From: a virus
Strand: one strand, 5' to 3'
DNA: 24,172 bases
IMG/VR virus record: IMGVR_UViG_3300036832_000799
Span: 1 to 24,172 of that record
This document shows, piece by piece, positions 9,140 to 22,137 of this stretch. Both the position numbers and the translations under genes were made by a program. The notes beneath the pieces are model-generated. The model saw nothing but the letters and a program-made list of their open reading frames with translations, was not told where the DNA came from and did not search any database. Each line of letters begins with the position of its first letter. The first letter of the stretch is position 1.

Positions 9140-11437
9140 TTATGCGGAAGCTATGCGGGCTTCGAGCGCGGCGAGACGCGCCTCAACCTGCTGGATCGCG
9201 CGCACCGCGTAGGCAAGGATCGGCTGCCATTGCGGGTGCAGCACATCGGGCGCGTCCGAGTCTTCCTGATGCACCAGCCGGTCGACCGAGTTGGGGATCG
9301 CCGCTTCGAGGTCTTCCGCGACCCAGCCGCACGCGTAGTGATCCGTCTCGGTCCACTCGCCGTCGTCGGTCAGTGTCGCCCCCGGCGCGTCGTAGCTGTA
9401 GAACGGGATCGTCCGCAGCGCCGCCATCGCGTCGTAGTCCTCGACCACCGCGATCTCGCGCTTGACCGCACGACCGCTCGGCGTCGCCAGCGTGATATAG
9501 CCGTAGCTGTTGACAAAGCAATAAAGCGAGGTGCCGTCCCAGCGCATCGAGTAAAGATTGCTGTTGCCGTAAACGCCATAAAAGACGCCGTTCTGGGTAT
9601 TGACGTAATCGTTGACCACCAAAACCGCTGTCGCCGTGACAGTATTGGCAAACAGCCCGATCGAAACCAGATTGCCGGCGCTCGTGTTCTGAATATTGCA
9701 CGCGCCGCCGCCGCCCGAAATTAGCGCCGTGTTGCCTGCGATCAGCGTTCCAACGGCAGTAATATTGTTATTGCAGGAGATATTGCCGCTCACGCTCAGC
9801 GAGCCGCCATTCGGCACGGAGACCGTGCTGGCAAACAGACCGATCGAACTGAGCGCGCCGCCACCCGCCGCGCTGATGTTGCAGGAACCGGAACTGCCGA
9901 CGATGTCGACGGCGTTCCCGGCGCGAAGCGTTGACCCCTTGGCGATCAGACTGTTGTTGATCGTCAGGTTGCCGGTGTTGTCCAGCGCCATCGTGTTGAT
10001 GCCGGGGTTGGTGTACCACAGGAACTGCCCGTTACCCGTCCCGGTTTGAAACGCGAAATTTGTGGCCCCCGCCATATTGATCAAGCTACCGGCCGGTCCA
10101 TAGACAGTGCCGCCGGTATAGAGACTGCCGGTCGCGGTGATGTTGCCGCTGGCGGTGACATTGACCGCGCCGACATTGCCGCGAAACGTGCCGTTGCCCG
10201 CGCCGTCGAGGGTCAGCGCCACCGAGGGCACATTGTAGCTGGCGGGCGTCGTCCAGAAGGTCAGCTTGGTTTCGAGATTGGTCGGCGTCCACGCCGATCC
10301 GGCATTCATCAATATCGCCGCCGGATTGCTGTTGCTCATGGCTGAGCCTTGCCAGCCGTTCCAGCAGACGCCGCCGAGCGAATCGTTGGCGACAATCGCG
10401 GTCGGCGCGGCAAAGCTGCCGTTGACCCGGCGCAAATGCAAAACGGAACCGTTTGCCGCCGCGACGATGTTGTGGTCGAACCCTACCGAGGTCGCCACAT
10501 AGCCGCTCGCATACTGGTCCGGTTTGATCTGCGTGCCGGTCGTGATCATCACCGCGCCGGTCCACGCCGGGGCCCCGGCAAGGTTTGCGGGCAGCGGCTG
10601 GGTCGCGTTGGCGGTGCCGCCGCTGGCGATCGGCAGCGGGTTTGTCAGCCCCAGCCCGGTCGCGGTGATCCCGCCGGTAACGGTCAGACCCTGCATCGTG
10701 GTCGATCCGCTGATCGCCACATTGCCGCCCATCCGCGTGTCGCCGCCCAGCGGCTGAAGCAGGAGCGGGTAACGCTGCGACAGGTCGGTCGTGTTGGTCA
10801 CGTCCAGCCACGTTCCCGACGAGCCGTTGGTGCCGATGTCCAGTGTCGGCCCTGCCGTGCCGTTGACCAGCCGGGCGATCAGACTGCCCGACTGCGTGCT
10901 GCCCGAACCGGCCGGCATACTCGCCATTGCTGGCTGGCGCAGCGTCAGCGGCGGTGTGCCGTTGGCGATCACCGTGCCGCCGTTGATTGTCTCGCCGCCC
11001 GAGACGGTGAACCCGGCATTGGCTGTCAGGGCTCCGCTCGTCACGATGGAGCCGCCAATGGTGACCCCGCCCGCGAGCGGCACAACCTGCGCCCAGGCGG
11101 CATTGAGCCGCCCGTAATAGTTCGAATCGGCTGGCGCATCGGGAATACCGCCGCCGCCGCCGCCCGTCCCCGCGTGCTGATCGACATAGTGCTTGTTGGC
11201 CACGTCCAGATCGCTGGTCGGATCGAGCACACCATGCAGCGTGGTCACAGTGGCGCCGAGATTGATCTGGGTCGTGCCGATGGTGACGTAGGGGGTCGCG
11301 AGCATGACGTTGGTGATGGACCCCGGCGCAATGATGCTGACGGGACTGAGCGCCAGCGCGATGGCCGCGTTGAGGTCATCTGCGGTGAGAAGGGCCCCGT
11401 TTTTCCAGGGATAGCCGCCTAAATAGACACCTTGCAT
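9140..11437 (-). CDS. Tail fibre with C-terminal S74 chaperone (fibre 2)
   Basis: 765 aa. Residues 1-90 are an attachment-type N-terminus ('LTADDLNAAIA', 'DVANKHYVDQH', typical of phage fibres). Residues 92-97 are a Gly run. Residues 100-620 are repetitive beta-rich shaft with many 'VTGGITATG'-like turns. Residues 645-765 form a Peptidase_S74 intramolecular chaperone: 'TPSGRAVKREI' with S654 and K659 spaced five apart as in the Ser-Lys dyad, then '[14 protein letters not shown]' and a C-terminal coiled coil 'VRAIQQVEARLAALEARI'. S74 domains trimerise fibres and then cut themselves off. Residues about 448-765 are homologous to the C-terminus of the spike-fibre at 16513-19947. ATG 11437 has GAGGTGAG just upstream. 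It probably binds the host surface. Confidence 0.9.
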   Translation of the reverse strand: MQGVYLGGYPWKNGALLTADDLNAAIALALSPVSIIAPGSITNVMLATPYVTIGTTQINLGATVTTLHGVLDPTSDLDVANKHYVDQHAGTGGGGGGIPDAPADSNYYGRLNAAWAQVVPLAGGVTIGGSIVTSGALTANAGFTVSGGETINGGTVIANGTPPLTLRQPAMASMPAGSGSTQSGSLIARLVNGTAGPTLDIGTNGSSGTWLDVTNTTDLSQRYPLLLQPLGGDTRMGGNVAISGSTTMQGLTVTGGITATGLGLTNPLPIASGGTANATQPLPANLAGAPAWTGAVMITTGTQIKPDQYASGYVATSVGFDHNIVAAANGSVLHLRRVNGSFAAPTAIVANDSLGGVCWNGWQGSAMSNSNPAAILMNAGSAWTPTNLETKLTFWTTPASYNVPSVALTLDGAGNGTFRGNVGAVNVTASGNITATGSLYTGGTVYGPAGSLINMAGATNFAFQTGTGNGQFLWYTNPGINTMALDNTGNLTINNSLIAKGSTLRAGNAVDIVGSSGSCNISAAGGGALSSIGLFASTVSVPNGGSLSVSGNISCNNNITAVGTLIAGNTALISGGGGACNIQNTSAGNLVSIGLFANTVTATAVLVVNDYVNTQNGVFYGVYGNSNLYSMRWDGTSLYCFVNSYGYITLATPSGRAVKREIAVVEDYDAMAALRTIPFYSYDAPGATLTDDGEWTETDHYACGWVAEDLEAAIPNSVDRLVHQEDSDAPDVLHPQWQPILAYAVRAIQQVEARLAALEARIASA
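9143..10096 (-). repeat. Duplicated fibre/S74 module, copy A
   Basis: This segment codes for a shaft block and S74 domain homologous to 16516-17310. Shared protein landmarks: 'FLWYxNxGxNxMxLDNxG', 'SxGLFAxxVS', 'TPSGRxxKR' and '[13 protein letters not shown]'. At DNA level, 22 bases at 9221-9242 are identical to 16606-16627. Confidence 0.8.
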
Positions 11438-13907: not shown

Positions 13908-15347
13908 TCAATGCGGATTGAGGATGATGTCGGCGATGTTGCTCACCGCCGCCGCCTCGTTGAATTGCACCAGCAGGTCGCCAACCCCGTAAATCTTGGC
14001 CCCGGCGACAATTGAGCGTGATGACGGTACCCCCGGCGCGATGGTGATCTGCGTCCCGCCAACGGCGGTCACGGTCGCCTGGAAGAAGGTCGCGTTGTCG
14101 AGTGTCGGCCACACCGTCTCGCCGACCACAAAGTACCCGCCATAGGTCACGTTGATCACGGTTGCCCCGGCGGGATAAGGACCGCCGGTCGCCTCCATCC
14201 CGGCGCGCGACAGCGCGAGACCATAAGGCGCATCGATCGAATAGGTGGCTCCCAAGGGATCGAGCTGCACCTGCAAGAGCCCGGTGCCGATGACCGCCGC
14301 GTCGCCATCGAGATTGGCCGGCGAATAGACATCGCCGAGCAGGACGTGCTGCCCGATTTCCAGCGAGTTGAAATATTCCGCCAGCGCCAGCTGGATGTAG
14401 CCGCCGACCGACTCGGTATAGCCGACAACCGCGGTCAGCCAGATCAGCACCGAAATCTCGATGCTGGTGAGTTGCCAGTAGGAGATGTAGTTCGCGGTAT
14501 TGGTCGAATCGTAGACGGTCACATGGGTGTTGCCGTAGGTCGGCACTCCCGGCGCCTTGACGGTCGCGATGGCCGTGGCGATGGCGTTCGGGTCGCCGCC
14601 CTGCACCACACAGGCGATGCTGCGGGCCGGGATGCCGGTGACGGGATCGGTCAGCACCGTGTCGTTCTGGAAGACCCTGGCCCGCGTCACGCCGGGAATG
14701 TTCAGCAGGTTCCCCTGGATACTGGCAAGCACCGTCTCGGCCGGGATCGCGGTCGACTTGGTCTGCCGCCGCCGGAGCTGCGCGTCGCTCTCGACCGGAG
14801 CGCCGGGTGTCGCGGCCTGGGCATTGTTGACGGTCTGCCAGCCGGGGGTCGGGGTGATGATCTGGGTGATTGTTCCCGGCGCGGCAATGGTCGCGCCGAG
14901 ACTGGTGCACACCGCGAGAACATCGATCAGACCCGATGGCGGAATGACCACGGTCTGCGAGATAAACCATTCCGTGCCGAGGTTGAGGTTGTCGGCCACG
15001 GTCGCGTTGGTGACGATGGTGCCCTCGGTGCCGCCGAGGGTCACGACCACGACGCTCGCGGACGAGGACTGGCGCTTGATGCCGTTGATCTTGACGATCG
15101 AGCTGAGGCCCGCGCCGACCGCATAGGACGGGACAAACTGGTTGAAGGCGGCGATGGCGCTGTTGTTGGTATCGTTCAGGCAATCGGCGATGATCCCCAG
15201 CCACTGCCCGTCCTGGGTGTCGGGGTCGATGTCGATGTCGATGCCGTAGATCGAGCGGTAGGCGTCCTGAAGATAGGCCAGCACCGCATCCATCGTCGGC
15301 GCGTGGATGCCGCTCTCATCGATGGTGACGACGATCGGAGTGGTCAT
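13908..15347 (-). CDS. Baseplate J-like protein (Mu gp47/P2 gpJ family)
   Basis: 479 aa. Typical of the Baseplate_J family: N-terminal 'AVLAYLQDAYRSIYGIDIDIDPDTQDGQWLGIIADCLND' helices, then 'LPGV'-like 'LNIPGVTRARVFQNDT' around residues 225-240, 'RSIACVVQGGDPNAIATAI', and a C-terminal beta-rich region. The protein forms the baseplate wedge that closes the contractile sheath. It is co-translated with the gp25-like protein (ATGA overlap at 15344-15347) and followed at once by DUF2612. Length is normal for the family (about 350-500 aa). A 605-aa frame on the same strand in another phase is a shadow. Confidence 0.92.
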   Translation of the reverse strand: MTTPIVVTIDESGIHAPTMDAVLAYLQDAYRSIYGIDIDIDPDTQDGQWLGIIADCLNDTNNSAIAAFNQFVPSYAVGAGLSSIVKINGIKRQSSSASVVVVTLGGTEGTIVTNATVADNLNLGTEWFISQTVVIPPSGLIDVLAVCTSLGATIAAPGTITQIITPTPGWQTVNNAQAATPGAPVESDAQLRRRQTKSTAIPAETVLASIQGNLLNIPGVTRARVFQNDTVLTDPVTGIPARSIACVVQGGDPNAIATAIATVKAPGVPTYGNTHVTVYDSTNTANYISYWQLTSIEISVLIWLTAVVGYTESVGGYIQLALAEYFNSLEIGQHVLLGDVYSPANLDGDAAVIGTGLLQVQLDPLGATYSIDAPYGLALSRAGMEATGGPYPAGATVINVTYGGYFVVGETVWPTLDNATFFQATVTAVGGTQITIAPGVPSSRSIVAGAKIYGVGDLLVQFNEAAAVSNIADIILNPH

Positions 15348-15793
15348 AGCGGATCAGACCCTCCCAGTGCCGACCAGACGATCACAAACCCCGAACGGAA
15401 GGCCGGCGGCTGGCTCACGGCAACGCCGAGCCGGCCATAGATCGTTTGGATGGCGATCTGTGCCGTGAAGCTGCGCAGGTCCGGGTCACCCTGCGAGGCG
15501 TAGCTTTCGATCGACTGCACACCCGGTGTCCGCAGCACCCGCTGCTGGATCGCGACATCGCGCGATAGCTGGGTGTGCGCGCCGAGAACCCGCCCCTGCT
15601 GCACGACCGCGTCCGACAGGGGGAAGCCGCCCCACGGCATTCCCTCGGTCAGATCGAGAAACCACTCGCCGCGATAGAGCAGCAGCCGGGTCATGGCCGA
15701 CTGCCCGACGCCCTCGGCCTGGTCGTGCCAGAAGTCGCCGGCATTGTGGCCAAACTGCATGTCGCCGGCAGCGTCTTGCTTACGAAGGCGCAT
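15344..15793 (-). CDS. Baseplate wedge protein, gp25/Mu gp46-like
   Basis: 149 aa. 'LLLYRGEWFLDLTEGMPWGG', 'VLRTPGVQSIESYASQGDPDLRSFTAQIAIQTIYG' and the position directly before baseplate J match the gp25-like/Mu gp46 wedge family, which joins the sheath to the baseplate. The start at 15793 overlaps the stop of the 89-aa gene by 14 bases. It has only a modest ribosome site (GCAGGGCG), so translation may depend on upstream ribosomes. Size fits the family (100-150 aa). Confidence 0.85.
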   Translation of the reverse strand: MRLRKQDAAGDMQFGHNAGDFWHDQAEGVGQSAMTRLLLYRGEWFLDLTEGMPWGGFPLSDAVVQQGRVLGAHTQLSRDVAIQQRVLRTPGVQSIESYASQGDPDLRSFTAQIAIQTIYGRLGVAVSQPPAFRSGFVIVWSALGGSDPL

Positions 15794-16060: not shown

Positions 16061-16513
16061 CTACGGCATGGGGGGAAACGACGGCAGCGTGAGATCGGGC
16101 GGTCGCGGGTAGCCGTTGCGGTCGCACCAGTTGGCGACCTCGGAATCGCTCACCGTCGCGGCGGCGTATTCGGGCATGACCACGGCCATCGCGCTGTCGA
16201 GGTCACTCGTCAGCGTCGCTTCGTCCGCGTCGTTGTTCCACGGGCTGAGATGCATCCGCACCTTTTGCTGGATGCCGGGCGTCTCCAGCAGGTAAGGCGC
16301 CAGACGCTGCACCATCATTCCGGTGCTCAGCAGCGCGGGGGCCTGTTCGGCGGTGACCCGCTGCTGCACCCACGCCTTTTCGGGCGCCTCGTCGGTCGGC
16401 GGCAGCGGCTGCGCCGTGATGTAGGCCGCCCACGACAAGACCCGCGCGTAGATGCGGTCCTGGCAGATCGGCGAGCGCGGAAACGCCGCAACGCACTCGT
16501 TGTCGCTTGCCAT
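16061..16513 (-). CDS. Unknown 150-aa tail-cluster protein
   Basis: 150 aa from ATG 16513, which shares a base with the stop of the spike-fibre gene (TGATG). Unrecognised. A mostly helical N-terminal half ('ICQDRIYARVLSWAAYITAQPL', 'EKAWVQQRVTAEQAPALLSTGMMVQRLAPYLLE') is followed by 'DEATLTSDLDSAMAVVMPEYA' and a Pro-rich end 'PPDLTLPSFPPMP'. There is no signal peptide or membrane helix. It sits between the spike-fibre and the wedge genes, so a structural or assembly role is likely but not shown. A longer frame starting at 16741 is an artefact. Confidence 0.7.
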   Translation of the reverse strand: MASDNECVAAFPRSPICQDRIYARVLSWAAYITAQPLPPTDEAPEKAWVQQRVTAEQAPALLSTGMMVQRLAPYLLETPGIQQKVRMHLSPWNNDADEATLTSDLDSAMAVVMPEYAAATVSDSEVANWCDRNGYPRPPDLTLPSFPPMP

Positions 16514-19500
16514 CAAAGCCTCCCCTCTAAAGCTGCCAGCCGCGCGTTGGCGGCGTCGAGTTGCTCGCTCAATTGCTGGATGGCGCGCACCGCGTAGGTC
16601 AGCACCGGCTGCCATTGCGGGTGCAGCGAATCCGGCTTTTCCGGGTCTTCCTGATGCTGATAGCGCCGCACCGCGTGGGGGATCGCCGCTTCCAAATCCT
16701 CGGCGACCCAGCCGCAGTCGTAATGCGCGCCCACGGTCCATTCGCCGTCATCGTCGAGCGGCCCGCCGGGGGCGTCGTAGGCATACATCGGGATCGAGCG
16801 GATCGGGGTCAGCGCGTCGTAATCCGCGACCTCAACGATGTTTCGTTTGATGTTCCGTCCGCTGGGGGTCGAGAGAAAGATATAGCCGTAAGTATTGACC
16901 CAGATGTAAAGCGAGCTGCCGTCGTAGCGGATCGTGTAAAGCGCGCCGTTGCCGTTACTTGAAAAATAAGCACTGTTCATATTGACGTAATAACCAACCG
17001 TCAAAACGCTGTTGCTGCCGACGACCGAAACATTGTTGGCGAAGAGACCCAATGAACTGAGATTAGCGCCCGCCGCCGCGCTGATATTCAAAGCGGGGGC
17101 GCTGGTCGTGGCAAGAACGCCATAACTACTTAAATTGAGCGTGCCGCCGCTGATGATCGCCGAACCGCCGACGACAAGCCCGCCGGCGTTGTCGAGCGAC
17201 ATGCGGTTGGTGCCGGCGCTGTTGTACCAGAGGAAGCTACCGTTGCCGGAACCAAGCTGAAACGCGTAGTTGGTGCTGGTCAGGTTGAGCAAAGCGCCGC
17301 CGACGCCCCAGAGCGAGCCGCCGTTGATCGTCATCACGTCATAGATCAGCACCGAGCGGCTGGGTGACGCACCTGCGCCGACGATACTCAGGTTGTTGGC
17401 GTTGTAGCCGCGATAATCGATCGTCCCGGCGGCGGTATCGTCACCGCTGACAATCGGAAACCGCCAGCGGGTCGGGCTGAATTGGGCATTGACGGTCGTC
17501 GAGCCGAGGTCGGTCGTGCTGAAATTAAAGATGGGACCGGCACCAATTGCGCCCGAGCCGGTAAACAGGCCGATGGTGCCGCTGCGCGCCCAGATCGCCA
17601 GATTTCCGGTCGCGTCGCCACTGGTCGCGTTGGCCTTGCGTGCTTGTATCCCGGCCAGATCGGCCCACGCGCCCGCTGTCGTATAGTGTCCTTCAAGCGT
17701 GATCCCACCACCGACCCCCGCCGCCATCGGCCGCGCATCAAGAAACTGAGCGCTCGCGATCTCCCACCAGTTGGTCGGGGAGCTTGGATTAAAGATACTG
17801 CCGACGTTGAGCGGCCCGGTCACCGTCATCGCCCCAGCACCCGAGATGGCGGCGACATTAGCCCCGGCGTAGTTCTGAAACAGAAAGTTCGGAGTAGCGC
17901 CACTGCCGAGCTTGAGAAGCGTGCTGTTTGCGTCGGCGAAGATCAGCGGGCCGCCCGTGGTATTAGCCGAGCCGGTCGCGTTGGCGAAATAGTGGTAGTT
18001 GCTCGCCTGCGTGACGTTGCCGGTCACGTTGAGCGTGCCGCCCACCGTCAGGTTTCCTGGCCCGCTCAGCGAGCCCCCGGTCAGCGGCAGGTATCCGGCG
18101 GCGACACTGTTGAGTTGCTGGAGCGGCACCGCCTGCAAGGCCGATGCGGCATTGCCCGGTAGCGTCACGGTTCCGGTAAAGACCGGCGACGCGAGCGGAG
18201 CCGCGCCCAAATTGACCAGCGCTGCCGCTGCGGTCGTCGCGTTGGTGCCGCCGCTGGAAATAGCGACCGGCACCGTCAGCAGAACCGTATTCGGCGTCGT
18301 CCCGGTATTGAGCGTCAACCCGGTGCCGACCTGCCAGTTTGGTCCCTGCGGGCCGGTTGCCCCCGTCGCGCCGGTTGCTCCGGTCGGACCCGTCGGCCCC
18401 GGCACAGTGGACGCGGCCCCCGTTGCACCTGTGGGGCCGGTTGGCCCCGCGACACCCTGCGGACCTTGCGGACCCGTTGGTCCGGCTGGACCCGGAACCG
18501 TACTATCAGCGCCGCTCGCACCCGTCGCGCCGGTATCACCTTTGGGTCCGGTCGGACCTGCCGGGCCGGGAACGGTGGAGTCGGCACCAGTTGCGCCCGT
18601 TGGGCCTGCCGGTCCGGTTGGGCCGGCAATGCCCTGCTGTCCTTGTGATCCGGTATCGCCTTTGGGTCCGGTCGGTCCCGCCGGACCCGGCACCGTGCTA
18701 TCCGCACCAGTTGCGCCCGTTGGCCCCTGCGGCCCGGTCGGACCTGCGACGCCCTGCGGCCCCTGCGTGCCGGTCGCTCCGGTATCGCCCTTTGGTCCCT
18801 GCGATCCGGTTGCGCCGGTAGCGCCGGTTGGACCCGGCGCACCCTGATTGCCCTGCGGCCCCTGCGGCCCCGTGCCGCCCGTTGCGCCTGCTGGGCCGAC
18901 CGGACCCTGCGCCCCCGTCGCGCCGGGATTGCCCTGCGCCCCCGGCGCTCCCGGCGGCCCGGCGATGCCCTGCGGCCCAACCAGCGACGTTCCGGGTGTC
19001 GGCCATGTTCCGGCCTTGGGGCCGTAGATGTTGTGCGGCGTCGTGTCGATGTAGAAATCGCCGTCGACGCCGGTCGTGTTCGGCGGCGCTCCCGTGCCGT
19101 TGAGTACGGTGTTGCCGTCCGTGCCATCCGCACCCGGCGGCCCCTGTGGTCCTTCCGGTCCCGGCGGTCCCGGCCCGCCGCCGCCGCCGCTGCCGATCGG
19201 CACGCCGTTGACAAAGAACCCGCCGAGCGCGTCGATCAGCCCCTTCGCCCGGTGATCGCCGTCCGTATTGACATTGCCGGTGTGGTGCGTGGTCGGCGAA
19301 TCGAGGGTGTTGGTGCCCGACGCTTTGAGGTTGTTGTTCTCGGTGTTGGTGTTGAGCCCCTTGCCGTTGACCGAGGTCGGGTTGTCGGGCGCCGTGAAGG
19401 TGAACATCCCGCTGCTCGACCCGTCGCGTGTCGTGCTGACTTGCGGATTGAAATCGAGGTTGGTCTTCCCGTCGTTGGTGCGGAGCTGCCAGGTCTTGGC

Positions 19501-19947
19501 CGAGACGTTCTGGAGCTTGTTCGGCTGGCTCTTGAACCCCGGAATAAAGAAGCCGTCGGAGAGCGAGTGCATTCGGCTTTCGGGCTGGGTCTGCTGGCCG
19601 CCCTGCGCCCACCAATTATCGATGCTGCGCGACGCGAAGATCGTCAGCCCCTCGTCGCCTTTGGTGACCGGGATCGTGATCGCCATTCCGCCGCCGCCCA
19701 ATTGGAGCGTCGGCATGTCTTGCAGTGTCGGGATGGTCTTCCACGTGACCTTACCGCCCGGTGCCTGTTCCGCCATCTGCACCGCAGGATTGGCGTCGAC
19801 CGTGTTCTGCCCGGTGTCGTGCTTCTCGGCGATCGTCGGCATCGCCGTCTGGATGCGCGCTTGCAGTGCCTCGCCATCCTGGCGCGAGGCTTCGTCCCAG
19901 TCGGTAAAGCGCTCGACGGGATCGAAAGTACCGTTGCTCTGTGCCAT
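16513..19947 (-). CDS. Central spike (Gp138-like) fused to collagen-like fibre and S74 chaperone
   Basis: 1144 aa from ATG 19947 (GAGG overlaps the previous stop; a start at 19989 is rejected). Residues 1-165 match the Gp138/GpV-type membrane-puncturing spike N-terminus: '[50 protein letters not shown]' (OB-fold), then '[13 protein letters not shown]' and 'WQLRTNDG'. Residues 230-252 link to collagen-like Gly-X-Y repeats (258-278, 324-536) around a 45-residue '[21 protein letters not shown]' module. Residues 540-1000 are a beta-rich shaft, and 1020-1144 an S74 domain with S1029 and K1034 spaced as a Ser-Lys dyad. Usually the spike is a separate short protein. Here one chain appears to serve as baseplate spike, fibre shaft and trimerisation chaperone. 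Order (hub, Dit-like, plug, spike) supports the spike call. Confidence 0.85.
16516..17310 (-). repeat. Duplicated fibre/S74 module, copy B
   Basis: The counterpart of 9143-10096 within the spike-fibre gene, sharing the shaft blocks and the S74 domain. At DNA level, 22 identical bases lie at 16606-16627 and 9221-9242. It is about 160 bases shorter than copy A because copy A has one extra 'SIGLFA' shaft block. Confidence 0.75.
18337..18978 (-). repeat. Collagen-like Gly-X-Y coding repeat with 120-bp period
   Basis: About 70 Gly-X-Y triplets in frame. Blocks '[19 protein letters not shown]' recur at residues 415 and 455 (exactly 40 residues, 120 bases apart) and again, varied, at 480 and 511. 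On the plus strand the segments near 18531-18600 and 18651-18720 are near identical. A smaller collagen block lies at 19114-19176. Confidence 0.85.
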
Positions 19948-19954
19948 CAGCGCC

Positions 19955-20287
19955 TCACGGCAGCACCAGATAGACCCGCCCGTCGCCACCCAGATTGGTA
20001 AAATTCGGTATCTGATCGGGCGAGTTCGCCGGCCCGATGGTCATCACCGTGATGATCGTGTGCGCCGCCAGCGGCAGGTAGGCGAACTGTTCGAGCACGT
20101 CGCAGCCGGTGACCACCGCCAGCCCGGAGAGAATCGGCGCGGCATTGAGCCCGTCCCAGATGTCGAGCAGCCAATACTGGGCCATGCGGTTCCACTTGAA
20201 GTGCAGCGTGTAGGACGCGCCCTGCCAGGTCACGATTTCCGAAAACGGCCGCCCCGACAGCGTCGGTATCTCGGTAACGGTCGCCAT
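19955..20287 (-). CDS. Baseplate plug protein (DUF6983-like)
   Basis: 110 aa. '[27 protein letters not shown]' and '[18 protein letters not shown]', followed by a C-terminal '[12 protein letters not shown]', is the pattern of the small phage baseplate plug family (Pam3 gp18-like/DUF6983), which seals the tube at the baseplate hub. The start at 20287 shares one base with the upstream TGA (TGATG). It lies between the Dit-like and the spike genes, as expected. A longer 188-aa frame starting at 20521 is out-of-frame padding over the upstream gene. Residue positions 15-50 form the conserved core. Confidence 0.85.
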
Positions 20288-20961
20288 CACGCCGCCATCG
20301 TTTCGGGCAGGTCGATGCCCTTGGCCGTGCCGGCATCGTTGTTGTTTTTGACCGTCTCGGTCTCGACCTTGCTCGAGGTCGCGGCGGGCGGGTTGGTCGT
20401 CGGCTGTTCGCCCTTCTCCTGCGGCGGCGCGGTGTCGTCGGGCTGGGCGTGCTGGTCGGGATTGTCCGCCATGCCCTGGTATTCGACGGTCTGCGTCCCG
20501 ACGATGATCACCTGTCGACACGTGATCGTCGCCATCAGCGCGAACTCGCTGGTCGGGTCGGTGACGACGCTCAGCCGCTGCATCAACATATTGGAATAAC
20601 TGCGTTTGCCGGTGATTACGTCAAACGGCATCATCGCCGCCTGCCAGCTTAGCAACAGCCCGTAGACGCCGGTTTCGGCGGACAAATCCTTGGCGTGAGC
20701 CACATCCCAGCCGGCACGAATATTTACCGTTACTGGGGTCTTAAAGGCATGATCCGAAATCGGAGCGCCTTTTTCTACGGGATGGTCGGTAATTTGAAGT
20801 GCATCTTCCCCCGTTTCGTCAATGGTTACTTGCGCGACGATGCCGCCGATCGACCGGCCGTGCGGCACAAACATCGCGGGCGACCAATTGCCATAGGGCA
20901 GCACCGCACTCGGCGCAGACTCGCCCGGTGTCGCCCCGCGCGACGGGAAGACCGCGCCCAT
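20287..20961 (-). CDS. Dit-like phage tail protein
   Basis: 224 aa. Residues 42-155 contain 'AQVTIDETGEDALQITDHPVEKGAPISDH', cut by 'TPVTVNI', then 'YGLLLSWQAAMMPFDVITGKRSYSNMLMQRLSVVTD' and 'FALMATITCRQVIIV'. This is the Dit-like N-terminal domain that forms a ring at the end of the tail tube. Residues 160-224 are a Pro/Glu/Thr/Lys-rich disordered tail, which is longer than usual. ATG 20961 directly follows the stop TAG of the hub gene (TAGATG). No catalytic role is expected. Confidence 0.85.
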   Translation of the reverse strand: MGAVFPSRGATPGESAPSAVLPYGNWSPAMFVPHGRSIGGIVAQVTIDETGEDALQITDHPVEKGAPISDHAFKTPVTVNIRAGWDVAHAKDLSAETGVYGLLLSWQAAMMPFDVITGKRSYSNMLMQRLSVVTDPTSEFALMATITCRQVIIVGTQTVEYQGMADNPDQHAQPDDTAPPQEKGEQPTTNPPAATSSKVETETVKNNNDAGTAKGIDLPETMAA

Positions 20962-22137
20962 CTATTGATCCGGCGCCCCCGACCGGCGCTTAAACACGGT
21001 CGAGGGGTTTTCGATCATGACGTTGCCGTCGGCATCGAGCGCGACACAGGTCATATCGCAGTACCAGGGCTGCCCGCGCGTGTCCCCGGTGTAGGTCATC
21101 ATGATGACCTTGTAGCGCCCGGTCGGTGAAGTCGGCGCGACCTCGAAGTTCTCGTCGCCGGTTGCGATCGACTTGGTCGGCATCCCCTGCGCCCACTCGG
21201 CGCCGCTGCCAGGGACAAAGGCGACACCGCTCAGCAGTTCCTTGTCGATGCGAATGACCCCGCCGAGGCGGATTTTCGGGTTGAGCAGGCAGCGCGCCTG
21301 GATGCCCTGCGGCGTCACCTCGGGGATGCTGACCAAGCCGGTCTTGGGGTTCAAGACCACTTCCTGCCCCGGCAGGTACTTGTCCTTCCGCACGACATAG
21401 ATCACCCCCAGGTCGACGTACATATTCGCGCCTTCTTTGTTCATGTAGTCGCGGAGGTGGTCGCGGGTCGCCCCGGCGAGCGTCTTGCCCCGCTGCAAGA
21501 TGCCCTGGCCGATGCTGGGATCGATAAAGCCCAGTGTGGCGCCTCCGACCGAGACGAGATTGTTGACCAGCGCGTTGATCACCGCCTTGTCCTGCACCCC
21601 CTTCTGAAACTTCATGTAGGACGTTGCGGTGTTCATGATGGTGTCGCCATCGCCCGCGTGGATTTCGAGATAGGTATCGGTCGGGTTCTCTTTGCCGCGT
21701 CGGTACTGCACGACGGTGCCGTCAAAGATCACCCCGTAATTGGCGTATTTGTACCCCGCCGACAGTTGCACGCGGGTGAACTCGTAGACCTTCTTCATCG
21801 TCTGTGGCGCCATGTTGTAGACCCGCGCGCGCAGCAGGTTGGGCGAGGAATTGGTGGTGCGGTTCACGGTGAACTCGACCCGCAATTCGGCGAGTTCCAG
21901 CCCTTGCTTGGCGTTGGTGCCGGCGGCGGTGCCCCCGGTGCTGCCGTTGACATCCGCGCCGGTTCCCGAGCCGTAGACGATGAGGCTGACTTGCCGCAGC
22001 CACTGGGCGTCGTTGGTCGCCGTCGCCCCTGGCGTGAAATAGCCCGAATAGGGCCCGTCGCTGGGCTCCATCTGAAAGGCCAGCTTGCGCCAGCCTTCCA
22101 GCGTCTTGCTCATGTCTGTGCCGCTGGTGTCGCTCAT
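20962..22137 (-). CDS. Baseplate hub protein (gp27-like)
   Basis: 391 aa. It lies directly after the tape measure gene with an ATGA overlap (22134-22137). The core has 'LRVEFTVNRTTNSSPNLLRARVYNMAPQTMKKVYE', 'VQLSAGYKYANYGVIFDGTVVQYRRGKENPTDTYLEIHAGDGD' and 'PKIRLGGVIRIDKELLSGVAF', typical of the hub proteins in compact myovirus baseplates (gp27/gpD-like). It binds the tube and the central spike. The first 60 residues are an unusual Gly/Thr/Ser-rich, probably flexible extension. The start at Met 9 (22113) is possible, but the overlap favours 22137. The family call is by order and pattern; moderate to good. Confidence 0.8.
   Translation of the reverse strand: MSDTSGTDMSKTLEGWRKLAFQMEPSDGPYSGYFTPGATATNDAQWLRQVSLIVYGSGTGADVNGSTGGTAAGTNAKQGLELAELRVEFTVNRTTNSSPNLLRARVYNMAPQTMKKVYEFTRVQLSAGYKYANYGVIFDGTVVQYRRGKENPTDTYLEIHAGDGDTIMNTATSYMKFQKGVQDKAVINALVNNLVSVGGATLGFIDPSIGQGILQRGKTLAGATRDHLRDYMNKEGANMYVDLGVIYVVRKDKYLPGQEVVLNPKTGLVSIPEVTPQGIQARCLLNPKIRLGGVIRIDKELLSGVAFVPGSGAEWAQGMPTKSIATGDENFEVAPTSPTGRYKVIMMTYTGDTRGQPWYCDMTCVALDADGNVMIENPSTVFKRRSGAPDQ

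Follow-up and report, generated by a model that had tools for sequence, protein, structure and literature searches.

A probable central tail spike continued by a collagen-like fibre and a putative S74 chaperone in a clade of uncultured phages

The window, that is, the whole stretch of viral DNA analysed here (24,172 nucleotides), is a 24 kb metagenomic fragment and represents the entire record for its virus. It contains a set of baseplate genes around one long gene, P0001, and a second fibre gene, P0012. The features referred to below are as follows:

20962..22137, minus strand: baseplate hub, E217_GP41 family (PF22759, 53 bits; phrog_196, baseplate hub)
20287..20961, minus strand: Dit-like tail protein (PF21821, 98.7 bits)
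19955..20287, minus strand: plug (110 aa, Pam3_gp18 family), immediately preceding the spike gene (frame translation, PF22479, 51.7 bits)
16513..19947, minus strand: spike-collagen-fibre-S74 gene, P0001, 1,144 aa (ATG at 19947, stop at 16513)
19198..19947, minus strand: predicted OB-fold central spike and stalk, residues 1-250 (Pfam, AlphaFold2, Foldseek)
19537-19842, minus strand: Gp138_N, residues 36-137 (Pfam, 81.9 bits, cut-off 26.1)
19108-19188, minus strand: first short collagen block of P0001
18337..18978, minus strand: collagen-like Gly-X-Y repeats, broken briefly by VPG, residues 324-537 (Pfam Collagen, run lengths)
16864..18336, minus strand: fibre shaft and tip, residues 538-1028 (BLASTP)
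16516..16863, minus strand: putative S74 intramolecular chaperone with a C-terminal helix, residues 1029-1144 (Pfam Peptidase_S74, dyad, profile match)
16861-16863, minus strand: S1029 of the putative dyad
16846-16848, minus strand: K1034 of the putative dyad
15344..15793, minus strand: baseplate wedge subunit (phrog_120)
13908..15347, minus strand: baseplate J-like wedge protein (PF04865, phrog_6)
9140..11437, minus strand: second fibre, P0012, 765 aa, with an S74 end

A preliminary description of this DNA had read the gene order as hub, Dit-like protein, plug and spike, and Pfam found this order upstream of P0001, while wedge, J and DUF2612 proteins are encoded downstream. The order hub, Dit-like, plug and spike is that of the window's clade (see below); in the short-spike loci L016, L031 and L049, it is Dit-like, gap, hub and spike. 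In the tape-measure protein P0005 (22134-24107, minus strand), a long run of glycines leads to a C-terminal Phage_lysozyme2 domain, and beyond this domain there is another region with similarity to a tail lysozyme PHROG.

Three Pfam domains were found in P0001, each over its cut-off: Gp138_N, Collagen and Peptidase_S74. The Gp138-type spike claimed for the N-terminus was borne out by sequence, with the 81.9-bit match, and also by fold. Residues 1-265 were modelled by AlphaFold2 from 71 homologues with a pLDDT of 85.6, the monomer having strands at 163-185 in the stalk region, and the best solved matches obtained with Foldseek were all contractile-tail spikes (E217 gp43, SN Orf41, the Pa193 tail tip, Pam3 gp20, PhiTE, P2 gpV, phi92 gp138 and the R2 pyocin spike). 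The Phage_spike profile matches the relatives L074 and L076 below its cut-off. In E217, the spike is a trimer that closes the tube beneath the hub and comes off upon contraction (PMC10329688).

The chain then continues, as the preliminary description had it, into a collagen fibre, a shaft and an S74 domain. Pfam recognises five collagen stretches (86.8 bits, cut-off 27.2), and P0001 has 75 Gly-X-Y triplets in runs of at least five, residues 324-537 being almost unbroken. The collagen triple helix rises by 0.286 nm per residue, and this region would be about 61 nm long if it were wholly triple-helical; the threefold symmetry of such a helix suits a trimeric spike. In the shaft and tip that follow (residues 538-1028), BLASTP found parts that resemble side-fibre ORFs (L071 and L084) and the spike of L080.

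The Peptidase_S74 match, at residues 1030-1094, is marginal when taken alone (23.4 bits, where the cut-off is 22, or 28.7 bits by a frame search), the scores in relatives being 26-48 bits. It is strengthened by three other observations. Firstly, a profile made from eleven related C-termini matches solved S74-type domains (8jov, E 3e-15; 6f45, 6e-11; MYRF, 7dc3; endosialidase, 3gw6). Secondly, the Ser-x4-Lys pattern is kept in 10 of the 11 aligned C-termini. Thirdly, the dyad of MYRF, S578/K583, which also occurs in phage relatives, has a spacing equal to that of S1029/K1034 (PMC3742443), two residues that are exactly where they had been claimed to be. The exception to the pattern is L078 (3591-6614), where Cys replaces the catalytic Ser (CDYRVK) and where Pfam does not call S74. 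The monomer model of the P0001 S74 domain is poor (pLDDT 49.7, too low for a fold search), with a C-terminal helix at a pLDDT of 93. Going by its sequence, this domain probably trimerises the chain and trims it by self-cleavage. S74 is absent from the tips of the long spikes L070, L073, L075 and L077, and is therefore not obligatory.

The end of the spike is not confined to the spike gene. The last 157 residues of P0012 are 60% identical to residues 982-1144 of P0001, S74 included, and the P0012 S74 has the same dyad (PSGRAVK), which suggests an exchange of modules between the two genes. Elsewhere, residues 830-1239 of the L086 spike and residues 1214-1542 of the L085 spike match one and the same L078 fibre at 43% and 41%, respectively, and the C-terminal parts of the clade spikes are mosaic, with modules shared with side-fibre genes. 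Most relatives have extra fibre genes between the spike and the wedge, whose products end in S74 and are anchored by a different N-terminus, and many phages of the P0001 kind have two or three S74 proteins. Among the viral contigs searched, there were no close relatives of P0001's own C-terminus. In P0001 and its relatives, Pfam found neither a known binding domain in the tip nor carbohydrate-binding modules past the spike domain.

One explanation of this last result is that the extension is only an axial spacer or tether, reaching, for example, through a thick surface layer and taking no part in recognition. Collagen and repeat shafts do serve as spacers in many fibres, and the Pfam result for the tip fits this role. 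However, the ends are highly variable and are common to side fibres, as receptor-binding tips would be, and several of them are S74, a domain whose normal role is the maturation of a folded tip; a pure spacer is thus an unlikely reading.

In all, 237 distinct N-termini were collected by scanning viral contigs and genomes. The window's clade consists of about 20 distinct viral contigs with complete spikes of 447-1621 residues; its phages are uncultured soil phages, all metagenomic and mostly fragments. In a quick tree, the clade is grouped with an SH-aLRT of 94 (99 without L086/L087), and the long/short label requires four changes versus about 22 with shuffled labels. According to Pfam, six chains besides that of the window (L069, L072, L074, L076, L080 and L086) combine Gp138_N, collagen and S74, two more (L084 and L085) combine Gp138_N with S74, and Gp138_N is followed by other ends in L070, L071, L073, L075 and L077. 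The union of an OB spike and S74 in one chain, which the preliminary description had expected in several phages, is therefore present in eight others. Misassembly or a chance gene fusion might be suspected in a 24 kb metagenomic fragment, but about 20 contigs, independent of one another and drawn from different samples, have the same architecture with different C-termini, and no matched frame has an internal stop; the recurrence of the long chains in so many independent contigs rules out such an artefact.

Several clade spikes have further peculiarities. In those of L070, L072, L075 and L081, an insert at residues of about 210-370 shares homology with the central part of the DUF3383 sheath (about 80-220 of the profile), and the same phages also have a complete sheath gene. 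In L071 (10001-15309), the spike is 447 aa long and two fibre ORFs come after it, a similar DGG-F motif closing both the spike and the first of these ORFs; the axial fibre of this phage may be built from several subunits.

Outside the clade, complete spikes are overwhelmingly 200-300 aa, about 200 relatives being short, with the exception of L043, L028 and a group of 373-502 aa. L043 (9932-12235), from a Bryobacterales bin, has a 768 aa spike with collagen and without S74, and is a probable independent case. The 324 residues of L028, from Burkholderia, reflect a start-site call (303 aa by the other reading). The 373-502-residue Gp138_N spikes of L110, L113, L119, L121 and L127, a separate group, carry additional tails and have no clear HxH apex. 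Among 50,697 phage records, no clade member was found, the best N-terminal identities being about 44%, and the genome scan together with about 1,150 genomes of three groups, examined for prophage hosts, contained short spikes only for this family, except for L043. A homologous N-terminus is present in 433 cultured phage records (Vibrio, Burkholderia, Acinetobacter and others), and the spike is about 220-286 aa in seven of these.

The long spikes also differ from the short ones at the apex. An HxH motif is present in the last 90 residues of 175 of the 203 complete short spikes and is missing from the other 28. Among 20 long clade spikes (14 complete and 6 cut by the contig end), there was none, except for one inside an S74 domain. 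The lack of an HxH apex or a PAAR cap makes P0001 a variant of the Gp138-type spike, in which an apex is usual but not universal.

A protease could cut the chain upstream, such that the virion has a short spike (about residues 1-250) and a separate fibre. The L071 spike, which stops before its separate fibre ORFs, would be in line with this, as would phage Deep-Blue, in which the two functions are divided between two genes: its Gp188 corresponds to the N-terminal part of Vp4 Gp111 and its Gp186 to the C-terminal part (PMC11406892). Nevertheless, there is no apex or tip motif near residue 250, so the released N-terminus would still be without the usual tip, and a linker of the GGFF-NGVPIGGGG type recurs across the clade. 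Such a cut has, in our opinion, only a small chance of being the right explanation.

Another possibility is that Gp138_N is here only the adaptor of a lateral fibre and that another protein is the central spike. The C-terminal two thirds of P0001 are indeed like side fibres and have modules in common with them, and this possibility would also give a place to the two or three S74 proteins of many such phages. Several findings speak against it. Gp138_N occurs exactly once per record, in records of up to 114 kb; Apex, gpV-type and PAAR matches are absent from the window and from 12 long-spike relatives; and a separate short spike elsewhere, which had been named as a finding that would refute a central role, was not found in the window or in these 12 relatives. 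P0001 is positioned beside the plug and the hub, and its N-terminus is not that of the side fibres. Moreover, in L138 (929-1681), a 250-aa spike with a Pfam Apex is encoded between the plug and the wedge, at the same locus; L138 is nested in the clade as the sister to L068 (SH-aLRT 98). The apex-tipped spike in the same slot, together with the absence of any other spike, makes a lateral adaptor very improbable. Read most simply, L138 would mean that one and the same spike can end either in an apex or in a fibre.

A full-length DUF3383 sheath was found in all 12 relatives, which means that their tails are contractile; the sheath is not within the 24 kb window. From homology and gene order, P0001 would occupy the tail axis. 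The best explanation, to which we give a probability of about 0.7, is that P0001 is the single central spike, in which a long, trimeric and exchangeable receptor fibre on the axis has taken the place of the HxH apex. As we infer, the chain would sense the host, be flexible and cleave itself.

Such a spike could work in the following way. The OB domain and stalk would be docked as a trimer on the hub, closing the tube, as is suggested by homology to E217 gp43. The three chains would leave the stalk as a collagen helix of roughly 60 nm, and then form a beta-rich shaft and a tip on the axis. The S74 domain would align the chains, cut before S1029 by means of S1029-K1034, and depart. The mature tip would then bind a surface ligand on the axis, and could be exchanged by recombination with side-fibre genes. 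At contraction, the fibre might be moved aside, driven through, or lost together with the spike, as E217 loses gp43. For the clade as a whole, the chances seem to us evenly balanced that it has given up the metal-capped piercing tip, that its central spike has become an exchangeable axial receptor fibre, and that puncture occurs without a sharp apex.

The accepted view of contractile injection machines is that membrane puncture requires a sharp tip, usually capped with metal, and that recognising the host is the task of side fibres. Here, a whole clade is without this tip; the sheath and the other baseplate parts are retained, and the place of the tip is taken by a collagen fibre with exchangeable ends. 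This suggests that receptor modules can move between the side fibres and the tail axis, and that the spike itself also senses the host. The apex spike of L138 and its long-spike relatives constitute a natural pair for asking what the apex does.

The preliminary description had also stated that known contractile spikes are short. This is mostly so: the Gp138/gpV-type spikes (E217 gp43, Pam3 gp20, SN Orf41, phi92 gp138, P2 gpV and R2 pyocin), which gave the best fold and sequence matches and resemble P0001 in the OB fold, a probable stalk, the hub/plug neighbour and the single copy, are of about 160-250 aa and end at the tip, whereas P0001 has about 900 residues more and no HxH apex. It is not an absolute rule, since Gp111 of the Bacillus phage Vp4, with 2,033 aa, has carbohydrate-binding modules linked in one chain to a domain like the R2 pyocin spike (PMC11406892). 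The likeness to P0001 is in the combination of a central spike and probable host-binding domains in one chain; the differences are that Vp4 belongs to the Herelleviridae and infects a Gram-positive Bacillus, and that Gp111 has coiled coils and carbohydrate-binding modules, no collagen or S74 being reported for it in the text consulted (PMC11406892). The fusion of a spike to host-binding domains therefore has a precedent, while a spike of the Gp138 family bearing both a collagen fibre and S74 is apparently new, none being found in a weak search of mostly open literature.

In S74 fibres (K1F endosialidase, 8jov, 6f45, the 3gud neck appendage and human MYRF), the C-terminal domain, the S-x4-K dyad and the end helix are like those of P0001, but in those phages S74 matures side fibres, appendages and tail spikes, whereas in P0001 it would end the central piercing spike. 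The cultured Gp138_N phages (Vibrio, Burkholderia, Acinetobacter and others) have a homologous N-terminus and a similar baseplate set; their spikes, however, are short in the seven records examined. Finally, recognition of the host on the tail axis is the task of the central tail fibres of siphophages, such as lambda J and T5 pb4. These are unrelated proteins on non-contractile tails, in contrast to the fibre of P0001, which would sit on the piercing spike of a contractile tail.
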